A DNA stretch of 35,736 nt, from positions 54,751 through 90,486 of the forward strand of contig MEKU01000079.1 of assembly GCA_001767195.1 (NCBI GenBank), given 5' to 3'. Within the stretch, counting starts at the first letter, position 1, and every line of letters begins with the position of its first letter. This document shows, in pieces, positions 20,172 to 35,736 of the stretch. The translations under genes were made by a program, and so were the position numbers. Below the pieces are notes generated by a model. That model saw only the letters and a program-made list of their open reading frames with translations, did no database searches and was not told the DNA's origin. The DNA is from Acidobacteria bacterium RIFCSPLOWO2_02_FULL_67_21 (lineage in GTDB: Bacteria > Acidobacteriota > Vicinamibacteria > Vicinamibacterales > UBA2999).

Positions 20172-20273
20172 ACCGTTTCCAAACAATACAGAACCATGAG
20201 CAACCAGCGGAAACGGTACATGCTGTATATATTAAATACAGTTATCCACCGTTCGCTAATTCAGCCCTATAAT
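20172..20273 (+). promoter_or_regulatory. AT-rich divergent control region with inverted repeats and a -10 box
   Basis: In an otherwise GC-rich window this stretch is AT-rich. ACCGTTTCC (20172-20180) is repeated inverted as GGAAACGGT (20209-20217), and CTGTAT (20223-20228) as ATACAG (20236-20241). A perfect TATAAT lies at 20268-20273, 60 bp before the chosen start of the carboxylase beta gene; no good -35 is seen, so activation may be needed. The two inverted repeats are candidate operators for either divergent gene. Confidence 0.5.
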
Positions 20274-20333
20274 GCCGCCGATGTCGGACTTCAAGGCCCA
20301 GTCGGCCTCGGCCAACCGCTCCGACTGCTGGGG

Positions 20334-21947
20334 ATGGTGAGCCCCCGCCTCGAGAGCCACATTCGCCCCGAGTCCGAGGAGTTCCGCGACAACCACGCCC
20401 GCATGGCCGGTCTCGTCAAGCAGCTGCGCGACCGGATCACCGTCTGCCGTCAGGGGGGTGGCCCCCGGTACCTCGAGCGCCATCGCCAGCAGGGCAAGCT
20501 GCCGGTCCGCGAACGGCTCGACCTGCTGCTCGACCCGGGCTCTCCGTTTCTGGAGCTGTCGCCGCTGGCGGCCTGGGAGATGTACGAGAACGAGGCGCCG
20601 GGCGCCGGCCTTGTGACCGGCATCGGCCGTATCTCCGGCCGCGAAGCGATCGTCGTGGCCAACGACGCCACGGTGAAAGGCGGCACGTACTATCCCGTCA
20701 CGGTCAAGAAGCATCTGCGCGCCCAGCAGGTGGCGCTCGAGAACCGCCTGCCGTGCGTCTATCTGGTCGATTCGGGCGGCGCGTTTCTGCCGATGCAGGC
20801 CGAGGTCTTCCCCGACAGGGAGCACTTCGGGCGCATCTTCTTCAATCAGGCACGGATGTCGGCGGAAGGCATCGCGCAGATTGCAGTGGTCATGGGCTCG
20901 TGCACGGCCGGCGGCGCGTACGTCCCGGCGATGTCCGACGAGACCGTGATCGTCCGGGGGACCGGAACCATCTTTCTCGGCGGGCCTCCCCTCGTCAAAG
21001 CCGCCACCGGCGAAGAAGTGAGCGCCGAGGAGCTCGGCGGCGCCGACGTCCATACGCGCCTGTCGGGCGTGGCCGACTATCTGGCCGACGATGATGCGCA
21101 CGCACTCCAGGTGACGCGAACGATCGTCTCGACGCTGACCGGCCGCAAGGCGATGCCGGCCGACGTGGCGACGCCCGAGGCTCCCGCGTACGATCCGGAA
21201 GAGATCTACGGCATCGTGCAGGCCGATCCGCGCAGGCCGTACGACGTGCGCGAAGTCATCGCGAGGCTCGTGGACGGCTCCCGGCTGGACGAGTTCAAGG
21301 CGCGGTACGGGCAGACGCTGGTCACGGGCTTCGCCCGGCTGCACGGATTTCTCGTCGGCATCCTCGCGAACAACGGCGTGCTCTTTTCCGAGTCGGCGCT
21401 CAAGGCCACGCACTTCATCGAGCTCTGCAACCAGCGCGGCATCCCCCTCGTCTTTCTCCAGAACATCACCGGCTTCATCGTCGGCCGCCAGTACGAGCGC
21501 AGCGGCATTGCCAAAGACGGCGCCAAGATGGTGCATGCCGTCGCCAACTCGGTCGTGCCGAAGTTCACGGTCGTCATCGGCGGCTCCTTCGGCGCGGGCA
21601 ACTACGGCATGTGCGGCCGCGCCTACGAACCGAGGCTCCTCTGGATGTGGCCCAACGCCCGCATTTCGGTCATGGGTGGCGAGCAGGCGGCAGCCGTGCT
21701 CACCACGGTGAAGCGGGATCAGCTCGCGCGCGACGGCGGCACGCTGAGCGATGACGAAGAGCGCGCCATCCGCGAGCCGATTCTCGAGAAGTACGAGACG
21801 GAGGGCTCGCCCTACTACTCCACCGCGCGGCTCTGGGACGACGGCATTCTGGACCCGGCGCAGACGCGCGAGGCGCTGGCGCTCGGAATCTCCGCGGCCT
21901 TCAATGCGCCGATTCCGCCGGCCAGGTTCGGCGTCTTCCGGATGTAA
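20334..21947 (+). CDS. liuB: 3-Methylcrotonyl-CoA carboxylase, carboxyltransferase (beta) subunit
   Basis: Transfers CO2 from carboxybiotin to 3-methylcrotonyl-CoA in leucine breakdown. The 537-residue product matches the family length (about 535) and carries both carboxyltransferase halves: [52 protein letters not shown], the [20 protein letters not shown] block typical of MCC beta, then [35 protein letters not shown] and [11 protein letters not shown]. The ATG at 20334 is chosen from family length and because it lies after the -10 box at 20268; an upstream in-frame ATG would put odd residues ahead of it. It heads a cluster with the hydratase, the alpha subunit and HMG-CoA lyase, which fixes the substrate as methylcrotonyl-CoA rather than propionyl-CoA. 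Confidence 0.92.
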
Positions 21948-22050
21948 CCACGAAGGCACGAAGATCACGAAGGGCACGAATCAATCGTCTTCTCCTATGC
22001 TGAAAGCGCTCCGCGACCTTCGCAGCCTTCGTGATCTCCGTGGTTGACGT
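21948..22050. repeat. Dispersed CCACGAAGGCACGAAG-type inverted repeat between liuB and liuC
   Basis: The whole gap between the beta subunit and the hydratase is one element: a left arm beginning CCACGAAGGCACGAAGATCA, a centre (about 30 bases) and a right arm (CTTCGCAGCCTTCGTGATCT, then CCGTGGTTG) that is largely complementary to the left. The same wording is common as dispersed repeats in environmental bacterial genomes (my recollection). In mRNA it would fold into a long imperfect hairpin just before the hydratase start. Confidence 0.75.
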
Positions 22051-22053
22051 CTT

Positions 22054-22881
22054 ATGACGTATCAGTTCATCCAGACGCGTCGCGACGGCCCCGTCGAATA
22101 CGTCACGCTGAACCGGCCCGACGTCCGGAACGCGTTCAATGAGGTCGTGATCCGGGAGCTGACCGAGTGGGCGGCGCGGACTGCCGCCGATCGCAGCGTG
22201 CGCGTGGCGGTGCTGGCCGGGGCCGGGCAGGCGTTCTGCGCCGGAGCGGACCTGACCTGGATGGCGCGGATGGCGTCGTTCACGCTCGGCGAGAACGTGC
22301 TGGATGCGACCGCCGCGGCGGCCATGTACGCGGCGCTCAGCCGCCTGCCGATCCCGCTCATCGGCCGCATTCACGGCGCCGCCCTCGGCGGCGGGGCGGG
22401 CCTCGCCGCCGTCTGCGACGTGGCGGTCGCCGACGACCGCGCGGTCTTCGGGTTCACCGAGGTGAAGCTGGGGATCGTGCCGGCCGTGGTGTCGCCGTAC
22501 GTGATCGCCAGGATTGGCGTGTCGGCCGCCGGCGAGCTCTTCCTGACCGGCATGCGCTTCGACGCGGCCCACGCATTGAAGATTGGACTCGTCCACGCGG
22601 TGGTGCCCGCCGAGCAGCTCGATGCCCGGGTGAAGGCCTACGTTCAGGAGATGCTCGGCGGCGGCCCCGAGGCGATTGCCACCGCGAAAGAGCTGATCCG
22701 GACGGTCTCGGAGCGCCGCACCGAAGAGACGATCGGCCTCACCGCGGAGACGATCGCCGAACGGCGGGCGTCCTCGGAGGGGCAGGAAGGCATTCGGGCG
22801 TTCCTGGAGAAGCGCAAGCCAACATGGCACCACGACATTCAGCGCGACAAGCCACAGAGCCACAGAGACACAGAGAAATAG
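22054..22881 (+). CDS. liuC: Methylglutaconyl-CoA hydratase (enoyl-CoA hydratase family)
   Basis: Hydrates 3-methylglutaconyl-CoA to HMG-CoA, the step between the carboxylase and HMG-CoA lyase. The 275-residue crotonase-fold protein has GPVEYVTLNRPDVRNAFNE, the oxyanion segments AGQAFCAGADL and GRIHGAALGGGAGLAAVCD, and FGFTEVKLGIVPAVVSPYV, which is typical of LiuC-type hydratases. The C-terminal tail (after TWHHDIQRD) and the stop codon are encoded by a dispersed repeat, making it about 10 residues longer than usual. No Shine-Dalgarno sequence is visible: the start follows directly after another repeat, so the hairpin or coupling may control translation. The specific substrate is inferred from the operon. 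Confidence 0.88.
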   Translation: MTYQFIQTRRDGPVEYVTLNRPDVRNAFNEVVIRELTEWAARTAADRSVRVAVLAGAGQAFCAGADLTWMARMASFTLGENVLDATAAAAMYAALSRLPIPLIGRIHGAALGGGAGLAAVCDVAVADDRAVFGFTEVKLGIVPAVVSPYVIARIGVSAAGELFLTGMRFDAAHALKIGLVHAVVPAEQLDARVKAYVQEMLGGGPEAIATAKELIRTVSERRTEETIGLTAETIAERRASSEGQEGIRAFLEKRKPTWHHDIQRDKPQSHRDTEK

Positions 22882-22915
22882 ACAAGTCCCGCTCTGTGAC
22901 TCTGTGCCTCTGTGA
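22850..22915. repeat. Dispersed CCACAGAG-type inverted repeat at the liuC-liuD junction
   Basis: CCACAGAGCCACAGAG plus ACACAGAG forms the left arm and CTCTGTGACTCTGTGCCTCT the right arm, with the hydratase stop codon (TAG, 22879-22881) in the loop. The left arm is translated (KPQSHRDTEK) as the end of the hydratase; the right arm ends about 13 bp before the alpha-subunit start. It would place a strong hairpin in the operon mRNA exactly between the two genes. Confidence 0.8.
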
Positions 22916-22927
22916 CCCCGTATCGGT

Positions 22928-24418
22928 ATGTTCAAACGCCTGCTGATTGCCAACCGCGGCGAGATTGCGGTGCGCGTGATTCGCGCGTGCCGCGAGCTCG
23001 GGACCGAGTCGGTGGCCGTGTACTCCGACGCCGACGCGCGCGCCCTGCACGTGCTGCTGGCCGACCGCGCCGTACGCCTCGGCCCTGCGTCGCCCGCGGA
23101 GAGCTATCTCTCCATTGACGCAGTCCTCGCGGCGGCACGCCAGGTGCAGGCCGAGGCGATTCATCCCGGGTACGGGTTCCTGGCCGAAAGCGCTGCGTTT
23201 GCGGCCGCCTGCGCCCGCGCCGGGATAGCCTTTGTTGGCCCGCCGGCTGACGTCATCGCGCGCCTCGGTTCGAAGATCGCCGCCCGCGCTCTCGCCGCCG
23301 AGGCCGGAATCCCGGTCGTCCCGGGGAGCGTACCGATCGATCAGCGCGACGAGACGATTGCCGGGGCGGCCCGCCGGGTCGGGTTTCCGCTGCTCGTCAA
23401 GCCGTCGGCGGGGGGCGGCGGCATCGGGATGAAGACGGTGCGCGAGGAGGCGTTGCTCCCGCCGGCGATTGCTCAGGCGCGGCGCGAGGCGATCGCGGCA
23501 TTCGGAGACGGCGCGTTGTATCTGGAGCGCCTCATCGAACGCCCCCGCCATGTCGAAGTGCAGATTCTCGCCGACCACCATGGCGGCGTCGTGCACCTGT
23601 TCGAGCGCGAGTGCTCGCTCCAGCGGAGACATCAGAAGGTGGTCGAGGAGACGCCGTCGCCGGCCGTGACGCCGGCGCTCCGCGCACGTCTGGGAGAGGC
23701 GGCCGTCAGGCTCGCGCAGCAGGCAGGCTACCGCAACGCCGGGACCGTCGAGTTCCTTCTCGAGGGCACCGGCGACCAGGCACGCTTCTACTTTCTCGAA
23801 GTGAACACGCGGCTCCAGGTCGAACATCCGATCACCGAGCAGGTCACCGGCGTCGATCTGGTCCGCGCGCAGATTGCGATCGCCGCTGGCGAGCCGCTCG
23901 CCTGGGCCCAGGAGAACCTCCGTCAGCGCGGGCATGCGATTGAGGTCCGCGTGTATGCCGAAGATCCCGCCCGGGACTATCTGCCGCAGGCCGGGAGACT
24001 GCTGCTGTATCGCCAGCCGTCGATGCCGGGCGTGCGCATCGACAGCGGCGTGGCAGAAGGTGACGACATCTCCGTGCACTACGATCCGCTGATCGCGAAG
24101 CTGGTGGCGCAGGCGGAGACGCGCGAGGCTGCACGGCGGCGCGCACTGGCGGCGCTGCGGGAGTTTCCGGTGCTCGGCATCCGCACCAATGCTTCCTTTC
24201 TGATGGCGCTGCTCGAGCATCCACGCGTCGTCGGCGGCGACACCGACACGCGGCTGGTGGACGAAGAACGGGACGCGCTCATCGCCCGGCTTGCCGGGAC
24301 ACCGCCCGCAGAGGCCATGGCGGCCGCGCGAGCCGTACCGGCGGCTGAGACCGGTGCCACAGGTGCCGACTCCCCTGCCGCGGACCCGTGGAGCGCGCTG
24401 CGAGGCTGGCGTGGGTGA
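22928..24418 (+). CDS. liuD: 3-Methylcrotonyl-CoA carboxylase alpha: biotin carboxylase part
   Basis: ATP-dependent biotin carboxylase that loads CO2 on the biotin carrier. The 496-residue protein begins FKRLLIANRGEIAVRVIRAC and has HPGYGFLAES, the ATP-grasp lid KPSAGGGGIGMKTV, ERPRHVEVQILAD, the ECSLQRRHQKVVEE segment and the active site EVNTRLQVEHPITEQVTG; a standard biotin carboxylase C-terminal domain follows (AIEVRVYAEDP). It ends with an Ala/Pro-rich linker and PWSALRGWRG, where fused MCC alpha proteins (about 660 residues) continue into the biotin carrier domain. Here the carrier is a separate frame. The start lies just behind the repeat at 22850-22915 and has no obvious ribosome site. 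Confidence 0.92.
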   Translation: MFKRLLIANRGEIAVRVIRACRELGTESVAVYSDADARALHVLLADRAVRLGPASPAESYLSIDAVLAAARQVQAEAIHPGYGFLAESAAFAAACARAGIAFVGPPADVIARLGSKIAARALAAEAGIPVVPGSVPIDQRDETIAGAARRVGFPLLVKPSAGGGGIGMKTVREEALLPPAIAQARREAIAAFGDGALYLERLIERPRHVEVQILADHHGGVVHLFERECSLQRRHQKVVEETPSPAVTPALRARLGEAAVRLAQQAGYRNAGTVEFLLEGTGDQARFYFLEVNTRLQVEHPITEQVTGVDLVRAQIAIAAGEPLAWAQENLRQRGHAIEVRVYAEDPARDYLPQAGRLLLYRQPSMPGVRIDSGVAEGDDISVHYDPLIAKLVAQAETREAARRRALAALREFPVLGIRTNASFLMALLEHPRVVGGDTDTRLVDEERDALIARLAGTPPAEAMAAARAVPAAETGATGADSPAADPWSALRGWRG

Positions 24419-24797
24419 GGTGACGGATCTCGGTCATGGGCGATATCTCGTCGCCGGCCGGCTTGCGTACGCGGCCGGGCCGCCGCAGGCGCGATGGGTG
24501 TTCCTGGACGGCCACGTCTATGTGATCGACGTACGGCCGGCTGCCGGTGACCCGGCCACTGCCCCTGACCGCCGGCATGACGACGAGCTGGCGCTGGCCT
24601 CACCCATGCCGGCAACGGTCGCCGCCGTCAACGTGGCGCCGGGCCAGACGGTGGCCAGGGGGGATGTGCTCGTCATGCTCGAAGCGATGAAAATGGAGCT
24701 GCCGATCCGCGCGCCGCGTGCCGGCCGCGTCGCGCGCGTGGCATGCAAGCCCGGCCAGCTGGTGCAGCCGGGGATTGCGCTGGTCGAGCTGGAATGA
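24411..24797 (+). CDS. Biotin carboxyl carrier part of 3-methylcrotonyl-CoA carboxylase
   Basis: The product (128 residues from GTG 24411; GTG 24420 is also possible) has a short beta region (RYLVAGRLAY, RWVFLDGHVYVIDV) and a complete biotinyl domain: SPMPATVAAVNVAPGQTV, then LEAMKMELPIRAP with biotin lysine K94, and VACKPGQLVQPGIALVEL. It overlaps the end of the biotin carboxylase gene by 8 bp in another frame. Either the alpha subunit is naturally split and expressed by coupled translation, or one frameshift separated an ancestral fusion; both domains look intact, so a working split enzyme is likely. Confidence 0.85.
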   Translation: MGEVTDLGHGRYLVAGRLAYAAGPPQARWVFLDGHVYVIDVRPAAGDPATAPDRRHDDELALASPMPATVAAVNVAPGQTVARGDVLVMLEAMKMELPIRAPRAGRVARVACKPGQLVQPGIALVELE

Positions 24798-24803
24798 GAG
24801 GGT

Positions 24804-25724
24804 ATGCACAACGCAGTTCTGCCGTCGAAAGTCCGGCTGGTTGAAGTCGGCCCGCGCGACGGTCTTCAGAACGAGCCGGTCTTCGTGCCGGCCGCCCACA
24901 AGATCGCCTTCGTCAACCGGCTTGCCGACGCGGGGCACTCGACGATCGAGGTCACGGCGTTCGTCACGACGAAGTATCTGCCGCAGATGGCCGATGCCGC
25001 GGAGGTGTGTGCCGGTATCACCCGCAAGGCGGGCGTCCGCTACACCGCGCTCATCCCGAACCTCGTCGGCCTGTCGCGCGCGCGCGACGCGGGCGTCGAC
25101 GAGGTGGCCATCTTCCCCGCCGCGACGGAGGCGTTCAGTCGACGCAACCTGAATCAGACCGTAGAGGAGGCGCTCGCGACCGTGGCGGACGTCTGCCGGG
25201 AGGCGCGAAGCTCTGGCCTGCCCGTCCGCGCGTACCTCTCGACGAGCTTCGGGTGCCCGTTCGAGGGGCCGGTCGCGCCTTCACGGGTTCGCGATCTGAC
25301 CGCGCGCCTGATCGACGCCGGCATCTACGAAGTGGCGCTCAGCGACACGATCGGCGTCGCCCATCCGCGGCTAGTGCTCGACGTCCTCGAACAGGTGACG
25401 AGCCGGGTGCCGCTGACGAGCCTGGCGCTGCACTTCCACGACACGCGCGGGACCGCGCTCGTCAACGTGTACACGGGGCTTCAGGCCGGCATCACCAGGT
25501 TCGACGCGTCGGCCGGCGGCCTGGGCGGGTGTCCGTATGCGCCCGGCGCGACCGGAAATCTGGCAACCGAGGACCTCGTCTACCTGCTGGATGGGCTCGG
25601 GATCGAGTCGGGCGTCCAGCTCGACCGTCTGATCGAGGCCTCGCGGCCGCTCGAGCCGCTCGTCGGCCATCCGCTCCCCTCCCGCGTGTTTCGCGCCGCT
25701 CAGGCCACGGCCAACCAGCGGTAG
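24804..25724 (+). CDS. liuE: Hydroxymethylglutaryl-CoA lyase
   Basis: Cleaves HMG-CoA to acetyl-CoA and acetoacetate, the last step of leucine degradation. The 306-residue TIM-barrel protein shows VEVGPRDGLQNE (14-25, with catalytic R18 and metal ligand D19), the metal histidines HFHDTRG (H210, H212), and the active-site cysteine loop GGLGGCPYAPGATGN (C243). GAGAGGG precedes the ATG, 6 bp after the carrier stop. It completes the beta-hydratase-alpha-lyase set; isovaleryl-CoA dehydrogenase (liuA) and the regulator liuR are not in this cluster. Also known as mvaB. Confidence 0.93.
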   Translation: MHNAVLPSKVRLVEVGPRDGLQNEPVFVPAAHKIAFVNRLADAGHSTIEVTAFVTTKYLPQMADAAEVCAGITRKAGVRYTALIPNLVGLSRARDAGVDEVAIFPAATEAFSRRNLNQTVEEALATVADVCREARSSGLPVRAYLSTSFGCPFEGPVAPSRVRDLTARLIDAGIYEVALSDTIGVAHPRLVLDVLEQVTSRVPLTSLALHFHDTRGTALVNVYTGLQAGITRFDASAGGLGGCPYAPGATGNLATEDLVYLLDGLGIESGVQLDRLIEASRPLEPLVGHPLPSRVFRAAQATANQR

Positions 25725-26849: not shown

Positions 26850-27002
26850 GCCGCCTCCTTCGCCGCACGGCCGCTGCGGACCTTCGCAGGCCGCCGCGCG
26901 TAAAGAAGATCGTACGTGCGGAGCCGCGTACACGCAAGCACGGCGACCGGCGGGCCGCAGCTTGCATCCGAGACTCAGTCTCAGTCGCTCCTTGTGACCG
27001 CT

Positions 27003-27197
27003 GATATTCATATTCACCTCCAGACGCTGGCGCACGACTTCGTATTCGATGCGTGCCAGATCCCGCTCAATTGCTTCGACGCGCCGTTCCGGTCGTTCGA
27101 GGCGGAGGTGCTGCCGGTGCTCCTGAGCCGCGGTATCGCGCCGATCGGCATGAAGAGCCTGGGAGGCGACGCGCGGCAGGTGGCTCAGAAGGTGGTC
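27003..27197 (+). pseudogene. Internal fragment of an aldo/keto reductase
   Basis: The frame reads IHIHLQTLAHDFVFDACQIP, then LNCFDAPFRSFEAEVLPVLLSRGIAPIGMKSLGG. This corresponds to the segment of aldo/keto reductases where homologues read roughly D.VQMPLN.FDA...SFE..VLP.L...GI...GMKS.GG. The N-terminal catalytic Tyr/Lys part and the C-terminal cofactor-binding part are absent. The rest of the 555-bp gap between bacterioferritin and the TPR gene (26850-27002 and 27198-27404) shows no gene that I can support. Clearly a remnant; no ribosome site. Confidence 0.6.
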
Positions 27198-27404
27198 GAA
27201 AACGACCCGGCCTACGGTTGCGTTGCCGATGGCGATCAGGCCCCGTCCTGCCGTTCGATCCTCGATGGTGCGAAAACCGGACAGATTCAGCACGGCGGCC
27301 TCGTTGTCCCTGTCCCTGCCGTAGCGTTCGAAACGGGTCACGTTGGCACGATAAGCGCAACACGTGCCGTACAATCAGGCACTAGGTGGGCCGGAGCCAC
27401 GACC

Positions 27405-27995
27405 ATGAAAAGAATTGTCTTCGCTTTCGTTTTGGTTCCGGCGCTCGCCGGCGCCCAGGATGCGGCCGAGGTCAGGAAGCTGTACGAAGCCGGCCGGTAT
27501 CAGCAGGTCGTCGAAGCCAGCGGCGACACCGACACGCCGGCCGTCGTCTACACCGCTGGCCAGAGCCACCAGAAGCTCGGCGCCACCGATCAGGCGCGTG
27601 AGACGTACGGGCAGCTGGCCGCGCGCGCCGAAGACGACCCGTGGCACTTCATCGGCCTCTCCGCACAGCAGCTGCTCGACGAGCAGACGGATGCGGCCCT
27701 CGCCTCGGCAACACAGGCGGTCGCCATGGCCGGACGCCTTGCCGAAGCGCACTTCCAGCTGGGGCTGGTGCTGGCGAAACAGGAGGACTGGCGCGCGGCG
27801 GCCGACGCCTTCGATCGGGCCGCCGAGATCAATCCCGCGCTGGCGTACGCGCACTACTACGGCGGCCTCATGCACTACCGCGCCGGCCGGCCGGATCGCA
27901 TGGCCATCCACTTCGAGCAGTTCCTGAAGCTGGCGCCGGAGGCGCCCGAGCGCCCGGAGGTGATGCAGATCATGCGAACCGTGCGCGGCAGGTAG
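27405..27995 (+). CDS. Secreted TPR-repeat protein
   Basis: The 196-residue product has a signal peptide (KRIVFAFVLVPALAGAQ) and then tandem helix pairs of the TPR type: VRKLYEAGRYQQVVEA, VVYTAGQSHQKLGATDQARETY, AHFQLGLVLAKQEDWRAAADAFDRAAEINP and AYAHYYGGLMHYRAGRPDRM. It is probably a periplasmic scaffold for protein contacts. The ATG at 27405 has GGAG about 9 bp upstream. Its stop is only 2 bp from the stop of the convergent TamB/Omp85 fusion gene. An envelope-assembly role is possible by neighbourhood, not shown. Confidence 0.82.
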   Translation: MKRIVFAFVLVPALAGAQDAAEVRKLYEAGRYQQVVEASGDTDTPAVVYTAGQSHQKLGATDQARETYGQLAARAEDDPWHFIGLSAQQLLDEQTDAALASATQAVAMAGRLAEAHFQLGLVLAKQEDWRAAADAFDRAAEINPALAYAHYYGGLMHYRAGRPDRMAIHFEQFLKLAPEAPERPEVMQIMRTVRGR

Positions 27996-27997
27996 CC

Positions 27998-30900
27998 TTA
28001 GAAGGCCTGTCCGATCCCGAACGTCCAGCGCCCTGACGGTTCGGCCGCACCCCAGGCCGTCCGCCCGTAATCGATCCGCAGCAGCGCGAACGGTGTCGTC
28101 AGCCTCAGGCCGAGGCCGAGCGACCCGACGAGATCCCGCAGGCTGGCGTCTCGCGACCGGGCGAAGACGTTGCCGGCATCGACAAACGCGATCCCCCGCA
28201 GCCAGCGATAGAGCGGTACCCGGACCTCCTGGTTCAGCACGACCATCAGCCGCCCTCCGGCCGCGCCAAAGAAGTCGCGCGGGCCGAGACCGCCTTCCTG
28301 AACACCACGCACGGTGCGCGAGCCCCCAGCAAAGAAGCGCTCCGAGGGGATCAGCTCCTGGCCGCCAATCGGAACGACCGTCCCGAGCCGGGCGGCCGAC
28401 GCCAGCACAATGCGGCGCCACGGCCTGAAGTAGTACGCCTGCTGGACCTGCCGCACGAAGCGGATGTCCGACCCGACCGCCTCGGGCGCGAACTCGATCG
28501 TGGACGACGCGAAGAGGCCGCGGGCCGCGTCGATCGGGTCGTCGCGCGTGTCCCAGGCGGCGGCGCCGTTCAGCCGCGCGATGTTGACGGTGATGTCGAA
28601 CGCCAGCGGGTCGGACTCGGTGCTCTTCGTATCGAAGGTGTGGTTCCGCTCGAACGTATAGGCGTACGACAGGCTCAGGCGATCCCCGACGCGCGTCCGC
28701 TGCTCCCAGGTGACGCCGCTGCGGCTCGTCACCAGCGTCGCCGCTTCGAACGTTTCACGGGACCGCTCGCCGATGAGCGACGATTCCACCGGAAGACCCA
28801 GGAATGTCGGGGCGCTCACAAACAGGCGGCCGCGCTGCTCGCGGCGCTGCAGCGCCGCCGAGGAGCCGATCGTGAGGGCCCGGCCGAACAGCGTCCGCCG
28901 CGTGATGTCGGCGGAAAACCCCGGCACCAGACCGCGCCCCTCGATGTCGTTCTCGGGCCGCTCCTCTGCCACGACGAACCCGTAGCGCAGCCGGGCGGCC
29001 GGCCACTCCTCCACAACGATGCGAAGACGCATCGGGAAAGTCGGCGGATCCGCTCGCGGCTGCTCCGCTTCCCGCTTCGCGGAATCCGCCCCACTGGAAA
29101 GCGGCTCGGACGTCACGTCGAGGCGGCGGAAGAGCCTCGTGTCGAACACGCGCGAGCGCGCCCGCAGCACGTCTTCCGCTCTCATGGGCGAGCCGGCCGG
29201 AAAGTCGAGCGCACGGGTGATCACGTCCGGGTCGATCGCGCGGTTGCCGCTGATGACGACTTCGGCCAGAACCTGCCGCGCGCCCTCATCGACCGCGAAC
29301 ACGATGTCCACCGCCGGCCGGTCCGGCCGCACCGCCGGACGCGCCGCCACCGTCGCGGCGGCGAACCCTTCGCGCCGGTGAAGGGCGACCAGCCGCTCGC
29401 GCGCCGCTTCGAGCGCCGCCGGGGCGTAGGGCTCCCCTTCGGTGAGCGCCATCGCGTCCCGAAGAACGTCGGCGGGCAGGGACTCGGCGCCTTCGAACGC
29501 GACACGCGCAATCGTGAACACCTCACCCGCGCTGACGGTCAGCGGTACGACGGCGGTCCCGCCATCGAACAGCGGCGCCCCGGCGGTGGCTCGAGCCTGA
29601 AGGTATCCGCGCGCGTGCAGATAGGCGGTGGCCTCGCGCTCCGCCGCGCCCGGATCGACAACGGCGCGCTCGCTCACGCCGAGCGACGCAAGGTGGCCGC
29701 CGACATCGGCCGCCAGCGCGTCGGCGATCCCCTCAATCCGGACACGCGTCTCCGTGCTGCGCTCGCCGGCCTGGACGCCGATCTCCAGCGTCGTGCGCGC
29801 CTCCTCGCTCCGAATCCGCGCGTCGATGGCGGGCCGGAGGTATCCCGACCGCGCAAGATCGCTCCGGACGATCTGAACGGCCTCGTCCACCAGAAACTCG
29901 TCGAAGACCGCTTCCACCCACGCGCTCTCCAGGCGGCCCATGAGTGCGCTGCCGGCGTCGATGCCGATCAGGGTGACGATCGTCAGGGGGCCGGCGGCAA
30001 TCTCATATGTGAGCGCGACCCCGTCCGCTCCGTCCGATCGGCGCGCCGACACTCGTGCGGCAAGATGGTGCTCGCGCCGGTACAGCGCCTCGAGGCGGTC
30101 GCGGTCGTCCTGCCAGGCGCCGAAATTGAACCGATCGCCCGGCTGCAGCCGAAGCAGGTCACGAATCCGCGCCTCGGGAAGCGCCGGATCGCCGGCAATC
30201 GTCACCGACGCCACGCGCAGAGACTCCCTCGCTGCCGATGACGGCCGCGCGGCACTCCGTGGCGCTCCGCCAAGCGAGAGATCGTGACGGAACCCGTACG
30301 ACCGGAAGTCATCGTCATCGGAGACGAGCCGCAGCTCGAGGCCACGCACCGGCAGGTACTCGACGATCCACGTCTGTGCGTCGCTCTCACGCAGGCTCTG
30401 CGAAAACGTGATGTCGACCTCCGACCCGAGACTCTTGCCGAACGTCATCCGCGTGGCCGGGTCGAGCTCGATCGCCACTTCGCCCGGGTCCCGGCGGACC
30501 GTCTGCCCTTCGACACCGCCCAGCCGGAGCGTATCGAGGCCGACCGCGCGGCTGGCGAAGCCGAGGACTTCGGCCGAGAAATTGCCGAGCACCTGGGTGC
30601 CCACAAACGTCGCGTCGCCGGGCGCCAGCTCGTCGAGCGGCCGGCCGGTGAGCAGCAGCGACGCGATCTCCGCCTGTCCAAGATCGGGACTGGTGCTCGA
30701 ACGCATGGTCACCGAAGGGCTTTCGGCGGGACCGGTGATCGTCACTTCGATGTCTTCGCCGCCGGCCCGCGTGGTGGCCGCCACATTCAGGTTCGGCTCA
30801 ATCGCAACCGGGTTGGCGAAATCGACAGCGCCGAACGTCACCGCGTAGACGTTGCGGCCGACGAAGAGCTGACCACCTTCGCGCACTTCAGCGCGGCCCG

Positions 30901-33900
30901 AAAGGGCCGGCGCGGCGGCGGTTCCAATCAGGCGCAGGTCCGCCCCGAGCTGGAACCGCCCGTAGTTGTTGTCGACGATGACGTCCTCGTCGGTGATCAC
31001 GCGGATATCGAGCGCCAGCGCATCGAGCGCATCCGGGGCGTCGGCGCTCGCCGCCAGCCGCTGCGTGCGCAGCCCGGCAAGCAGCCCCGTGACCACGGCC
31101 ATCGGCTCGCGGTACGTGCCTCGAAGCACCGTCACCGTTCCCGACACACGCCCTGCGTACGCAGAGCGCAGCGGTGGACGTGGGGCGGGTCCCGCCGGAG
31201 ACTCGTTCGCATCGACCGGCGGACCCGCCGTCAACGTCAGCTCCGCATCGAGCTCGCTGCGGAGCCCCTGCGGAAACTCGAGCGCCATCCCTCTGACGTC
31301 GGCCGTCAGACTCGCGTCCACGCCGGACCCCGCGGTGTATTCGACGGCCCCCTCGCCACGCATCGAGCCGCCATTGATCGAGCCGGCCATCGCCGTCACG
31401 CGAGCGGTCGTTCGCGTCAGTACGGTGCGAACGCTCAGATCCGACACCACAACCCGCGGGTCGACCAGCCGGATCTCTCCGTCGGTGATGGTCAGGTCGC
31501 CGTCGATACGCGGACTCGTCAGCTCCCCGGTAATCGAGAGCCTCGGCTCGAGCCTCCCGGCCGTCGTCATCCCCGCCGCCCGTACGAAGGGCGTGAGCAT
31601 CCTCAAGTCGAGCACGCCGTTGGCAAGGATCGCGGTCTGGCGATCGCTCAGCCGCACCTGTCCTCGCACGCCGAGCGTGGCGCCCTGGCCGACCCACTCC
31701 CACGCCTCGACACGGGCGAAACCGTCGCGCGCGACGATGCGCGTAGGGATGCGCTGCGTGACGGGAAGGCCGGCAATCCTCAGGTCGAACCGGTCGATGC
31801 GAAGCTCGCCCGTGAGCGCGGCCACGTCGGCCGTCACGGCCGCAGCATCGAGCGTTGCATCGAGCGACCCCGTGACCTCGTCCAGCGTGCCCGGCTCGAC
31901 AAACGGTGCGAGCACGGCCGGCGTGAGGTTCGTGGCGGTCACCCGCAGGACGGCGGGTCCGCCGGTCGATGCGATCGCGCCTCCGGCGGGACCCGCCCCA
32001 CGTACCGCCACCCCCGCTCCACTGGCCGCCCCAGCGAGAAAAGACAGTGGCGCCTTGCCGACGGCAGACACCTCGGCGCCCTCGTACGACAGCCGGGCCT
32101 CGCGCAGCTCGACCCAGCCTTCCTCTGCATGAGCCCTGACCCGAAGCCCCGAGACCGGAGGCAGACCCTCGAGCGCGATCGAGCCGGGGCCGACGTCGAG
32201 ATCGCCGGCCACGACCGGCGCCCGCAGCGCGCCCGTCACGCGCGCCCGCACGGCAAGCGGGCCCGTGCCGCCCGTCACGGCCAGCCTCGTCAGGCCGGTT
32301 GCGGCGACGGCGCGCGCAACGGCATCGACGTCGCCGGTCACGGTGACGGCGAGACCAGGCCCGCCCGGCGCCGGCTCGAATGCCGGAAGAGTCCCAGAGG
32401 CCGAGAGCCGCACGTCCCCGGCGGTCATCTCGAGCGAGTCCAGCTGGACCTGCTCCGCCTCGTAGCGGGCGCGCGCCGGCTCAACGAGGCTCAGGCGCAG
32501 CTCACCGGTCACTCCGTCGAACGACTCCACGACGACTGCCGCCGATCCGCTGCGCCAGCGCTCGAGCGGCGTCTCCGCGTGCAGACGGACCGTTGCAGTG
32601 CCCGTGAGCATCGTGCCGGTGTCCATGTAGTCCCGGAGGAGCGAGAGGTCGAGCCCCGCCGCACGCGCGTCGATCACCGCCCCGTAGGGTGCCTCGAGCT
32701 GAACGCGCGCATCGGCCGCCGCGACGAAGCGCGGCGCCTCTGCTTCGATGCGCGCACTTCGGCGATCCAGCGTGACGGACGCGAGCACCGAGCCGACCGG
32801 CAGGTCCTGCCAGCGCCCTTCACGAACGGTGATCTCGCCGGTGCCCTGCGGGTCGTCAATCGTGCCGCTGCCGGCAAAACGCAGGCTGACGATTCCCGCA
32901 GCCGGTACCTCCGCGGTCGGCATCAGCCGCCAGTCCGTTCCCTCGAGCGACGCCGTATACCGGCCGGCTCGTGTGTCGTAGGTGCCGGCAGCCACGAGCC
33001 GGCCCGGCGCAGACGGCTGTCGCGCCGTCAGCTCCTCCACCGTGAGGATCGTGCCGGCGAGACGCCCGGCGGTCCGGACGTCGGCGATGGCCTCGCCCGA
33101 TACGCTGATCTGAGGTGCCGCCGCCGTGAACTGCAGCTGCGACTGAACGGGCTGACCGGACACCGTCGCCTGCACGTCGGACGCTTCGATCTCCGGCCCG
33201 CTCACATCTTGGAGACGCGCCTGGGCATCGATGCGCGGTGCGTCCAGCGTTCCCGCAACCTGAAGATCCACCCGGCCGGTGCCGCTCCTCAGCAGATTCG
33301 GCGGGATGTCTGCGAGGCCCGTTGTGCGAAGCACCGCCAGCAGCTGCGGCAGCCCGGTGTCGGCCACACGAACGGTCCCCGCGATCGCATCGTCGCGAAG
33401 GACGCCCTCGAGGCGCACCTGAATCGGCGCCACACCGCCGGCCACATGCCGGCCTACGTACCGCCATCGGCCGTTCGTGAGCTCGAGTGTGCCGTCACCC
33501 GAGAGCGCAAGCCGGCCCCGCGCGTTGCGGCCCGGCCGCAGCGTCGCCCGCAGCGTGGCCGACCAGCTCTCGACATCCGACCCGAACCCGCGAGCGTTGA
33601 GCTCGCCCGACGTGGCGGCTGCCGGCGCCATCGCAGCGTCGGGGGCCATCATCAAGACTGCGGCTGCAGCGTCGACGCCGGTCCACGACGCCCTCCCCTG
33701 GCCCGCACCATCGTCGTCCAGTGGCAGGACGCCGCCCGCCGTCACGCGCCCACCGGCAAATGCCAAACGCAGATCGCTCACCTCGACCGCAGCCGTACTG
33801 ATACCGACGTCTGCGGCGACGTCCGTCATGGACGCGCCCTGCCATCCGATGGCATCACTCGAGAGCCTCATCTGCGCGCCGAGGCTGTCGAGCGCGCCGC

Positions 33901-34723
33901 TAACGGTCGCGTCGAAGTCGACGTCGCCGCGAGGCAGCTCGCCGTTCGCCACGACCCACCTTGTGAGTCGCGTCAGATCGGTGCGGCCGCGCGCGCGGAT
34001 GTTCACGGACGGCTCCTGCGCGACGATCGTGACCGAGCCGTCAAGCTTCAGACCGCCTTCGGGCGCTTCGATGTTCACCGCCTCGAGGCCCAGCGTCCGG
34101 CCGTCGAAGCTTGCGCCCCCTTCAAGCCGAAAGATCGCGGTGAACTGTGTTTCTGTATTCAGCTCGGCGGGCTGGCGCAGCGCGATATGCCCTTCGTTCC
34201 GGGTCAGCAGGAGGTCGACCGAGGGCATCCAGAGATGGCGGATCGCCTGCTCGTCGCGCAGCTCCACGGCCAGCTGCGGCACCGCGAGTCGTGCAATCCG
34301 CAACGGCGGCGGCTCCCCTACACGCTCCTCCGTCGTGCGTGGAAGATTCGTGGTCCCGTCGCTCCGTTTGCGGGCGACGACGTGCATCCGGTCGGCCGTG
34401 ACGTCATCAAAGGCGATCTCGCCGAGCAGCGCCCGCCAGGGCAGCGTCACGGCCACGTAGTCGGCGGTCAGGAACGGGTCGTACGGTGAGTCGACCGCGG
34501 CCACACTCAGCCCGGCGACACCGAGCCGGAGCGTCGCGAGGTTGTAGTCGAGGCGGCCGGCGGCGACAATCAGCCCGTACTGTTCCTCGATGACGGGTAG
34601 CACGCGACGAAGCACGGTGCGGCGTACGGGCGGCGCGTGCAGCAACAGCACGAAGCCGGCAGCCACGCCCAGAAGGGCCGCCAGCACGCGCACGGAACGA
34701 GACCGAAAGACGCCGGACAACAT
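27998..34723 (-). CDS. Single-polypeptide TamB-Omp85 (TamA/BamA-like) fusion
   Basis: This uninterrupted 2241-residue frame joins two usually separate proteins. Residues about 10-30 form an inner-membrane anchor (VRVLAALLGVAAGFVLLLHA). From 30 to about 1480 comes a TamB/AsmA-like repeat region of beta-rich units, including the TamB C-terminal (DUF490) signature near 1320-1480 (EDIEVTITGPAESPSVTMRS, then DLGQAEIASLLLTGRPLDEL). From about 1500 to 1890 POTRA-type repeats follow (VASVTIAGDPALPEARIRDL, FTIARVAFEGAESLPADVL, EVVISGNRAIDPDVITRAL). From about 1898 there is an Omp85 barrel with the loop-6 motif SRTVRGV near 2136 and a terminal phenylalanine. In E. coli TamB and TamA are two proteins and the TamB C-terminus contacts TamA POTRA1, so the order here makes sense. 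Two 51-bp repeats are inserted in frame (residues about 908-924 and 1165-1181). Confidence 0.9.
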   Translation of the reverse strand: MLSGVFRSRSVRVLAALLGVAAGFVLLLHAPPVRRTVLRRVLPVIEEQYGLIVAAGRLDYNLATLRLGVAGLSVAAVDSPYDPFLTADYVAVTLPWRALLGEIAFDDVTADRMHVVARKRSDGTTNLPRTTEERVGEPPPLRIARLAVPQLAVELRDEQAIRHLWMPSVDLLLTRNEGHIALRQPAELNTETQFTAIFRLEGGASFDGRTLGLEAVNIEAPEGGLKLDGSVTIVAQEPSVNIRARGRTDLTRLTRWVVANGELPRGDVDFDATVSGALDSLGAQMRLSSDAIGWQGASMTDVAADVGISTAAVEVSDLRLAFAGGRVTAGGVLPLDDDGAGQGRASWTGVDAAAAVLMMAPDAAMAPAAATSGELNARGFGSDVESWSATLRATLRPGRNARGRLALSGDGTLELTNGRWRYVGRHVAGGVAPIQVRLEGVLRDDAIAGTVRVADTGLPQLLAVLRTTGLADIPPNLLRSGTGRVDLQVAGTLDAPRIDAQARLQDVSGPEIEASDVQATVSGQPVQSQLQFTAAAPQISVSGEAIADVRTAGRLAGTILTVEELTARQPSAPGRLVAAGTYDTRAGRYTASLEGTDWRLMPTAEVPAAGIVSLRFAGSGTIDDPQGTGEITVREGRWQDLPVGSVLASVTLDRRSARIEAEAPRFVAAADARVQLEAPYGAVIDARAAGLDLSLLRDYMDTGTMLTGTATVRLHAETPLERWRSGSAAVVVESFDGVTGELRLSLVEPARARYEAEQVQLDSLEMTAGDVRLSASGTLPAFEPAPGGPGLAVTVTGDVDAVARAVAATGLTRLAVTGGTGPLAVRARVTGALRAPVVAGDLDVGPGSIALEGLPPVSGLRVRAHAEEGWVELREARLSYEGAEVSAVGKAPLSFLAGAASGAGVAVRGAGPAGGAIASTGGPAVLRVTATNLTPAVLAPFVEPGTLDEVTGSLDATLDAAAVTADVAALTGELRIDRFDLRIAGLPVTQRIPTRIVARDGFARVEAWEWVGQGATLGVRGQVRLSDRQTAILANGVLDLRMLTPFVRAAGMTTAGRLEPRLSITGELTSPRIDGDLTITDGEIRLVDPRVVVSDLSVRTVLTRTTARVTAMAGSINGGSMRGEGAVEYTAGSGVDASLTADVRGMALEFPQGLRSELDAELTLTAGPPVDANESPAGPAPRPPLRSAYAGRVSGTVTVLRGTYREPMAVVTGLLAGLRTQRLAASADAPDALDALALDIRVITDEDVIVDNNYGRFQLGADLRLIGTAAAPALSGRAEVREGGQLFVGRNVYAVTFGAVDFANPVAIEPNLNVAATTRAGGEDIEVTITGPAESPSVTMRSSTSPDLGQAEIASLLLTGRPLDELAPGDATFVGTQVLGNFSAEVLGFASRAVGLDTLRLGGVEGQTVRRDPGEVAIELDPATRMTFGKSLGSEVDITFSQSLRESDAQTWIVEYLPVRGLELRLVSDDDDFRSYGFRHDLSLGGAPRSAARPSSAARESLRVASVTIAGDPALPEARIRDLLRLQPGDRFNFGAWQDDRDRLEALYRREHHLAARVSARRSDGADGVALTYEIAAGPLTIVTLIGIDAGSALMGRLESAWVEAVFDEFLVDEAVQIVRSDLARSGYLRPAIDARIRSEEARTTLEIGVQAGERSTETRVRIEGIADALAADVGGHLASLGVSERAVVDPGAAEREATAYLHARGYLQARATAGAPLFDGGTAVVPLTVSAGEVFTIARVAFEGAESLPADVLRDAMALTEGEPYAPAALEAARERLVALHRREGFAAATVAARPAVRPDRPAVDIVFAVDEGARQVLAEVVISGNRAIDPDVITRALDFPAGSPMRAEDVLRARSRVFDTRLFRRLDVTSEPLSSGADSAKREAEQPRADPPTFPMRLRIVVEEWPAARLRYGFVVAEERPENDIEGRGLVPGFSADITRRTLFGRALTIGSSAALQRREQRGRLFVSAPTFLGLPVESSLIGERSRETFEAATLVTSRSGVTWEQRTRVGDRLSLSYAYTFERNHTFDTKSTESDPLAFDITVNIARLNGAAAWDTRDDPIDAARGLFASSTIEFAPEAVGSDIRFVRQVQQAYYFRPWRRIVLASAARLGTVVPIGGQELIPSERFFAGGSRTVRGVQEGGLGPRDFFGAAGGRLMVVLNQEVRVPLYRWLRGIAFVDAGNVFARSRDASLRDLVGSLGLGLRLTTPFALLRIDYGRTAWGAAEPSGRWTFGIGQAF
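31180..31230. repeat. 51-bp repeat, forward copy inside the TamB half
   Basis: This copy (GTGGGGCGGGTCCCGCCGGA at its start, GACCGGCGGACCCGCCG at its end) differs from the intergenic copy at 17212 at only a few positions. It lies within the coding region at residues 1165-1181 and is translated as a Gly/Pro/Ala-rich linker (GPPVDANESPAGPAPRPP). Being 17 codons long, it does not shift the frame. Confidence 0.85.
31951..32001. repeat. 51-bp repeat, reverse copy inside the TamB half
   Basis: Reverse-orientation copy (CGGCGGGTCCGCCGGTCGAT at its left end, GGCGGGACCCGCCCCAC at its right end), nearly identical in its outer parts to 12888-12938. It encodes residues 908-924 of the fusion (around VRGAGPAGGAIASTGGPAV), again a flexible Gly/Ala stretch, in the opposite orientation to the copy at 31180. 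Confidence 0.85.
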
Positions 34724-34734
34724 GGGGCCGCTGT

Positions 34735-34750
34735 GTTACCCTACTGTAAC
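34735..34750. promoter_or_regulatory. Small inverted repeat between divergent genes
   Basis: GTTAC (34735-34739) and GTAAC (34746-34750) form a dyad with 6 bp between, centred in the 33-bp gap between the divergent starts of the fusion gene and the YjbQ-like gene. The gap is too short for two ordinary promoters, so at least one transcript must start within the neighbour or be leaderless. The dyad is a candidate operator; chance occurrence is possible. Confidence 0.3.
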
Positions 34751-34756
34751 GCCCGC

Positions 34757-35736
34757 GTGTCTCACCAGAATCTGAAGGCCGCGCAGCCACTCGACGTCAC
34801 GCTGGAGCTCGTGCCCCGAGCGCGATTCGACGTCCTGGAGCTGCGATCCCATTTCGCGACCGAGCACCAGGCGTTGGCCGCCTACCCGCACTGCCTCTAC
34901 TGGTCGTCGCATACGACCGCGGGATTTCTCGACCGCAGCCTCGCCACTCGGCTGAAGCCGGAGGCGGTTCCTACGTATCTCGAGGCCTTCCGGGCGCTGT
35001 TTCCCGAAGGCGCCGGCTACGAGCACGATCGGCTCGAGCGGCGGAACGACCTCGATGCCGACCAGCGGGCCGTCGAGCCGCGAAACGCCGACTCGCACCT
35101 CGCGTTCATCGCCGGCGGCCTGCGGGCGTGCGTCACGCACCCGAACCGGCCGGGCGAGTCGGTGTTCTTCGTCGACCTGGACGGGATGATCGAAGGAAGG
35201 CCCCGGCGCCGGCTGACGCGCCTCATCGGCTACAACCGCGAACGGCTCGTGCGCACGACGCGGATCGAAGTGCCGGTCTCGGCGCACCCGATCGACTCGG
35301 TGAACCTCAAGGACCCGCGCCTGGGCGTGTACGCGCAGCTCTCGGAGTTTGTCGCCGCGTCGGGCATCGGCAAGGGCCAGCTCCGCGTGGTGCTCGACCC
35401 GACGGAGCGGCATTCGGCGCTCACGATCAACGAGTACGAGACGCTACTGATGAAGCACGATCTGGCGGAGGTGATGCGCAACCCGCTTCGGTTCTTTGCC
35501 GAGAAGAGCCGCCATGCCTTCGCCAATCCGCGCGCCGTTCCGGCCAAGACGCTCGACTACGCCAAGTACGACTTCGTCCGGCTCCTCAACAAGAGCCTGG
35601 ACACGCTCGGACTGCGCGGGTCGATGGTTGAACGCCTGCTCGCCCGCACGCTGGCCGTGCCGGCCGCGCGCCTGTTCCGGATGCGCCGCTCGGTCAGCCT
35701 GCTCGTCTCGGAGCGCCCCGACGGCACCCACGGCCT
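34757..35736 (+). CDS. YjbQ-like (UPF0047) protein, incomplete at the right edge
   Basis: The frame is open to the end of the window (326 codons seen). The first half shows YjbQ/secondary thiamine-phosphate synthase features: SSHTTAGFLD (51-59), GYEHDRLERRND (88-99), NADSHLAFIAGGL (110-122) and FFVDLDGM. Ordinary YjbQ proteins are only about 140 residues. From about residue 190 a second similar segment appears (EFVAASGIGKGQLRVVLDPT, then ALTINEYETLLMKHDL), recalling the start of YjbQ again, so this may be a degenerate tandem version. GTG 34757 is used; GTG 34733 is also in frame; no ribosome site is seen. Function unknown beyond the fold. Confidence 0.65.
   Translation, partial: MSHQNLKAAQPLDVTLELVPRARFDVLELRSHFATEHQALAAYPHCLYWSSHTTAGFLDRSLATRLKPEAVPTYLEAFRALFPEGAGYEHDRLERRNDLDADQRAVEPRNADSHLAFIAGGLRACVTHPNRPGESVFFVDLDGMIEGRPRRRLTRLIGYNRERLVRTTRIEVPVSAHPIDSVNLKDPRLGVYAQLSEFVAASGIGKGQLRVVLDPTERHSALTINEYETLLMKHDLAEVMRNPLRFFAEKSRHAFANPRAVPAKTLDYAKYDFVRLLNKSLDTLGLRGSMVERLLARTLAVPAARLFRMRRSVSLLVSERPDGTHG

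Follow-up and report, generated by a model that had tools for sequence, protein, structure and literature searches.

A TamB–Omp85 fusion encoded in a single reading frame in Acidobacteriota

The fusion gene and its surroundings

The window, that is, the whole stretch of 35,736 nucleotides analysed here, carries on its minus strand a gene (34723..27998) that translates as one unbroken frame of 2241 amino acids, beginning with an ATG at 34723 and ending with a stop codon at 27998-28000, with no internal stops and no ambiguous residues (Table 1). The initial annotation had described this uninterrupted frame but left its strand unstated; the frame stands and is now placed on the minus strand. From the N- to the C-terminus, the product is composed of an inner-membrane anchor, a long TamB-type groove, the C-terminal strands of TamB, a linker, five POTRA domains and a 16-strand barrel. 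All parts of the domain order that had been proposed from the DNA letters were recovered: the anchor as helix 6-28 of an AlphaFold2 model, the TamB-like region as a PF04357 match with an intact TamB C-terminus, and the POTRA repeats, now counted as five, and the Omp85 barrel by both Pfam and AlphaFold2. In the suggested search with DUF490, POTRA and Omp85 profiles, every Pfam match lies above its curated cut-off. Antisense open frames overlap the DNA of the fusion (e.g., 30284-34489 on the plus strand); such frames are commonplace in coding DNA that is rich in G+C.

Table 1. Features of the fusion gene in the window (residues numbered along the 2241-aa chain)
Feature	Position	Strand	Basis
TamB-Omp85 fusion, entire gene, 2241 aa	27998..34723	-	one frame, conserved across 25 families
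N-terminal signal-anchor helix, inner-membrane, residues 6-28, RVLAALLGVAAGFVLLLHA	34640..34708	-	AlphaFold2 helix 6-28
TamB/AsmA-like beta groove, residues 51-1342, ~76 predicted strands	30698..34573	-	AlphaFold2; alternation test; Pfam in relatives
Pfam TamB (DUF490) domain, residues 1115-1469	30317..31381	-	PF04357, E 2e-29
TamB terminal OMP-like strands, residues 1425-1486, end RHDLSLGG	30266..30451	-	conservation; alignment with unfused TamB C-terminus
Junction linker, residues 1487-1502 (about 16 aa), no signal peptide	30218..30265	-	linker comparison; pLDDT <50 at 1488-1500
Five POTRA domains, residues 1503-1906	29006..30217	-	five beta-alpha-alpha-beta-beta units, pLDDT mostly 80-90; PF07244
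Omp85 16-strand barrel, residues 1910-2241, last residue F	28001..28996	-	PF01103; DSSP of model; Foldseek

An AlphaFold2 model of residues 1-1200, built from 25 sequences (model 1, mean pLDDT 86.5), consists of the membrane helix, a second helix at residues 31-49 and then near-continuous beta strands, and a hydrophobic N-terminal segment is present in nearly all complete fusions. Along the groove strands, the hydrophobicity of odd and even positions differs by more than in all 2000 shuffles, as would be expected of a groove with one greasy face. The Foldseek matches of model 1 were weak and confined to lipid-carrying beta grooves (apoB, LptD), and DUF748/YhdP/AsmA/TamB Pfam matches occur across relatives. 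PF04357 scores 103 bits on the fusion against a curated cut-off of 22.4 and occurs in 21 of 21 aligned family members; the score for the proteobacterial TamB equivalog NF047952 (NCBIfam), 51 bits, falls short of its cut-off of 825. The OMP-like terminal strands of TamB contain some of the best-conserved positions in the fusion family, yet they are internal, being followed by the linker and POTRA1.

A second model, covering residues 1042-2241 and built from 24 sequences (model 2, mean pLDDT 74.2), begins with the end of the groove. This gives way to a stretch that is helical and in part disordered, and then to five short strands (1425-1484); beyond a disordered linker come the POTRAs, which number five, and a barrel of 16 strands, with POTRAs and strands counted by us from the DSSP string of the model. 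Foldseek matched this model to BamA (E 1e-37) and TamA (3e-30), with TMt up to 0.68, and the POTRA array (PF07244; Pfam E 2e-31) and barrel (PF01103 at residues 1945-2241, E 2e-41) place this half within the Omp85 superfamily. It is neither a canonical BamA nor a TamA: its scores of 180 bits for the BamA equivalog TIGR03303 and 83 bits for the TamA equivalog NF047950 lie below the cut-offs of 297 and 625, respectively, and it has five POTRAs rather than three. In a tree of Omp85 halves, neither E. coli BamA nor the BamA of Acidobacteriota falls into its group.

The fusion gene stands alone between divergent and convergent neighbors, because the conserved gene upstream lies on the opposite strand. 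An operon with the 225-aa frame at 34736-35413 (minus strand) was considered and rejected on this ground, the plus-strand frame of that region sharing 70-84% identity with relatives versus about 42-59% for the minus-strand frame. On the other side, a TPR protein gene (26916-27995, plus strand) converges on the fusion, the two stops lying 2 bases apart. The part of this protein conserved in relatives is ~200 aa long and begins with the signal-peptide-like MKRIVFAFVLVPALAGAQ, so its true start is probably internal. This synteny recurs in at least 10 loci of close relatives, and the genomic context is little conserved beyond them; in G088, for example, the fusion has glyQS and a gene for a PEP-utilising enzyme upstream and mutL downstream. 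Elsewhere in the window (20196-25724, plus strand), carboxyl transferase, enoyl-CoA hydratase, biotin carboxylase and HMG-CoA-lyase-like genes lie in a row, which looks like a cluster for leucine degradation (methylcrotonyl-CoA).

The junction of the two halves

The C-terminus of unfused TamB proteins of the phylum (...YALDVRVRHAF) aligns with ...RSYGFRHDLSLGG of the fusion, directly after which the linker begins. Because the junction matches the natural end of unfused TamB, the TamB half is, judged from this alignment, complete, including its OMP-like last strand. The linkers of the main fused groups are short (7-29 aa), polar and of low hydrophobicity, with Kyte-Doolittle values over 15 residues mostly from -1.0 to 1.4 (one 1.9), whereas most N-termini of unfused Omp85 proteins, with their hydrophobic signal segments, reach about 1.6-2.9. 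The Omp85 half thus lacks a signal peptide of its own, and its export must use the TamB anchor. A lipobox-bearing signal is likewise absent at the junction. The contact between TamB and the POTRAs, which the initial annotation had taken to be covalent, is so at the level of sequence, since the TamB end, the linker and POTRA1 follow one another in one chain. A structural check of this passage from TamB into POTRA1 returned a linker predicted to be disordered and terminal TamB strands with a pLDDT of 45-73, and model 2 leaves the relative placement of the two halves unfixed (pTM 0.53).

In G276, a genome of the same order as that of the window, an unfused pair shares one frame: directly behind the tamB stop come the start codon of the Omp85 gene, ATG, and its signal peptide. 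In this genome the unfused pair is thus a single in-frame stop codon away from fusion, a small step between the two states. The gene order tamB→omp85 makes a single chain topologically possible, whereas the E. coli order, tamA→tamB, would not.

Distribution and origins

A search of 40 relatives and 297 genomes of the phylum, in which loci were fetched and translated individually, identified 54 complete single-frame fusions (1855-2779 aa) in 51 genomes from 25 families, including the single-contig 6-Mb genome G088. These counts rest on our own translations, as the automated frame length overran the stop codon in G276 (2362 = 1371 + stop + 990). Neither a stop codon nor a frameshift was found at the junction in the translated fusion loci. 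In addition, one TamB-end motif was scanned against 84,980 named genomes, a search sensitive to close relatives only; it yielded 26 loci, of which every complete one is fused, and added another 10 or so loci from named Acidobacteriota MAGs. The titles of these loci are Acidobacteria except for four public MAGs labeled Acidimicrobiia or Cyanobacteria (L061, L066, L080 and L081). At least three of the four (L061, L066 and L081) correspond to G013, G007 and G024, of the window's own family, and their titles look wrong. Two different fusions per genome were observed in G020 (L037/L038), G024 (L045/L046) and G058 (L131/L163); L163, a shorter fusion of 1855 aa, apparently contains fewer POTRAs.

In the tree of Omp85 halves (63 rows), the window falls in a group of 29 rows, all 29 of which are fused, and relatives are thus not always encoded as two adjacent genes with a stop near 30230. 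All 12 rows of a second group are also fused. In a third group, which holds the unfused tamB→omp85 pairs, fusions are nested in families f36 and f24; f36 holds an unfused member (G240) beside its fusions, and the f24 fusion has a full frame of 2269 aa. The groups of the TamB-half tree are largely the same, and this agreement implies that the two halves travelled together. A single clade of all fusions was rejected by the AU test (p-AU 3e-6). The fusion therefore arose more than once, with separate fusions inside an unfused tamB→omp85 lineage, and is a phylum-wide trait of Acidobacteriota.

A probable single-chain module and its alternatives

The fusion is probably a single-chain translocation and assembly module (TAM), in which TamB and Omp85 are fixed at 1:1 and held in both membranes. 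The N-terminal helix would target the chain to Sec and remain in the inner membrane, ~1,300 residues of TamB-type beta groove would cross the periplasm, and the native C-terminal strands of TamB would lead through the short flexible linker to the five POTRAs and to the barrel in the outer membrane, into which a separate BamA presumably assembles it. The hydrophobic groove may move phospholipid towards the outer membrane and/or feed beta-barrel precursors to the Omp85 gate: it would shield the lipid or hold unfolded barrel strands, the POTRAs would receive the TamB end, and the gate would open. We infer that the chain is uncleaved, placed in both membranes, 1:1 in its halves and, by analogy, TAM-like in its working, the last of which is reasonable because pairings of separate TamB and Omp85 proteins have been published (PMC12800296, PMC11361582, PMC13382580). 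The feature that characterizes a TAM, a TamB joined to an Omp85 partner across the periplasm, is present here as a covalent link in the encoded chain.

The tether bears on how such a module may work. By our estimate, a linker of about 16 residues reaches at most some 55 Å. Of the five POTRAs, POTRA1 lies furthest from the barrel, and the last TamB strand is tied to it; this strand would therefore reach the barrel seam only via a folded-back POTRA arm or a partner molecule, and a “hybrid barrel” state of the E. coli type would be constrained or transient. We lean slightly towards a broader proposal, that in large parts of Acidobacteriota a covalently closed, single-chain TAM serves both as the sole TamB and as the functioning bridge from inner to outer membrane, having arisen at least 2-3 times, and operates without the free TamB C-terminus on which the hybrid-barrel model of E. 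coli depends.

Other TamB and Omp85 genes in the fused genomes are relevant here. The window's genome also has separate tamB and omp85 genes in two pairs, in the order tamB→omp85 on contig C36 and omp85→tamB on C20, and its fusion may be redundant given these separate loci. This coexistence, together with the two fusions found in some genomes, would fit a specialised paralogue that serves one substrate class, for example certain barrels or a given lipid, and leaves the general work to separate tamB and bamA genes. Such a role is nevertheless unlikely, because the fusion is the sole PF04357 match in at least 10 genomes, one of them complete (G056, G159, G152, G122, G218, G175, G088, G137, G042 and G075), and in these genomes a general TamB role, if there is one, must fall to it. 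Both fused genomes examined in detail, G088 and G020, keep a separate, ordinary BamA-like gene. As separate observations on the window's genome (G000), the third tamB, on C20, is preceded by an Omp85 gene (L051; 12702-13838 and 11972-12790, minus strand) that is broken into two frames that overlap, suggesting a frameshift that is either genuine or a sequencing error. The probable canonical bamA on contig C26 (L160) is split over two frames (830 + 482 aa); that of relatives is one frame of ~890 aa, and assembly indels are likely.

Periplasmic cleavage at the linker, yielding an ordinary separate TamB and Omp85, so that fusion would only ensure equal synthesis and co-export, is rather improbable. 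It would suit a linker that is short, polar and predicted to be disordered, and an Omp85 half that needs co-export through the TamB anchor. However, no conserved cleavage motif was found in the linkers, which vary in length (7-29 aa) and sequence, and repeated independent fusion with loss of the signal peptide suggests that linkage is tolerated or favored. An assembly or sequencing error joining two adjacent genes can be rejected with near certainty: the window's genome assembly is fragmented and two other Omp85 genes in it look frameshifted, but the same single frame recurs in 51 genomes of 25 families, one of them single-contig, and in independently named MAGs. Thus, a single-chain module remains our preferred reading, and the repeated natural fusion strongly supports, at the genomic level, an obligate pairing of TamB with Omp85 at 1:1.

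Comparison with known systems

No TamB-Omp85, TamB-BamA or TamB-TamA fusion was found described in the literature searched; as far as that literature goes, the parts are known and the single-chain form is undescribed. In 2015, the TamB-BamA interaction was still to be addressed (Heinz 2015; PMC4494059). Outside Proteobacteria, the identity of the Omp85 partner of TamB, their ratio and the need for the TamB C-terminus in the barrel are questions on which the fusion bears. It provides an already linked complex for structural work and a natural setting in which to test the hybrid-barrel mechanism with its free C-terminus; more generally, it is a ready-made natural test of how TamB and Omp85 cooperate in building the outer membrane.

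The fusion and the E. coli TAM share an anchored TamB groove, OMP-like end strands and an Omp85 protein with POTRAs and a 16-strand barrel. In E. coli, however, cryo-EM shows separate TamA and TamB at 1:1, with the last strand of TamB, a free C-terminus, paired with strand 1 of TamA (PMC12800296). That system consists of two proteins encoded in the order tamA-tamB, and TamA has three POTRAs; the fusion is one chain in the opposite order, with five POTRAs and no free TamB end. The TamB-BamA operons, or BAM-TAM, of Spirochaetes and other phyla resemble it in encoding tamB followed by a five-POTRA, BamA-type Omp85, with physical contact between TamB and BamA (PMC4494059, PMC13382580). In Borrelia, TamB binds BamA, and its DUF490 domain bound POTRA2/3 and not POTRA1 (PMC11361582), which counts against a picture of contact through POTRA1. 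These operons consist of separate genes, and the Borrelia partner is the only BamA, in contrast to the separate BamA-like gene of the fused genomes examined.

The Bacteroidota TamL-TamB system likewise pairs TamB with an Omp85, but TamL is a separate lipoprotein (PMC12045153), whereas the fusion junction carries no lipobox signal. The long MlaD of Veillonella parvula has also been proposed to be a single chain fixed in both membranes, involved in lipid traffic and ending in a C-terminal barrel; it is, however, an unrelated, hexameric MCE/helical protein with a small barrel, and neither TamB nor Omp85 (PMC10665443). Both halves have their closest homologues in the unfused tamB→omp85 pairs of the same phylum (e.g., on C36 and in G276), which share the gene order and the TamB C-terminal motif of the fusion and differ in the stop codon between the genes and the signal peptide of Omp85.
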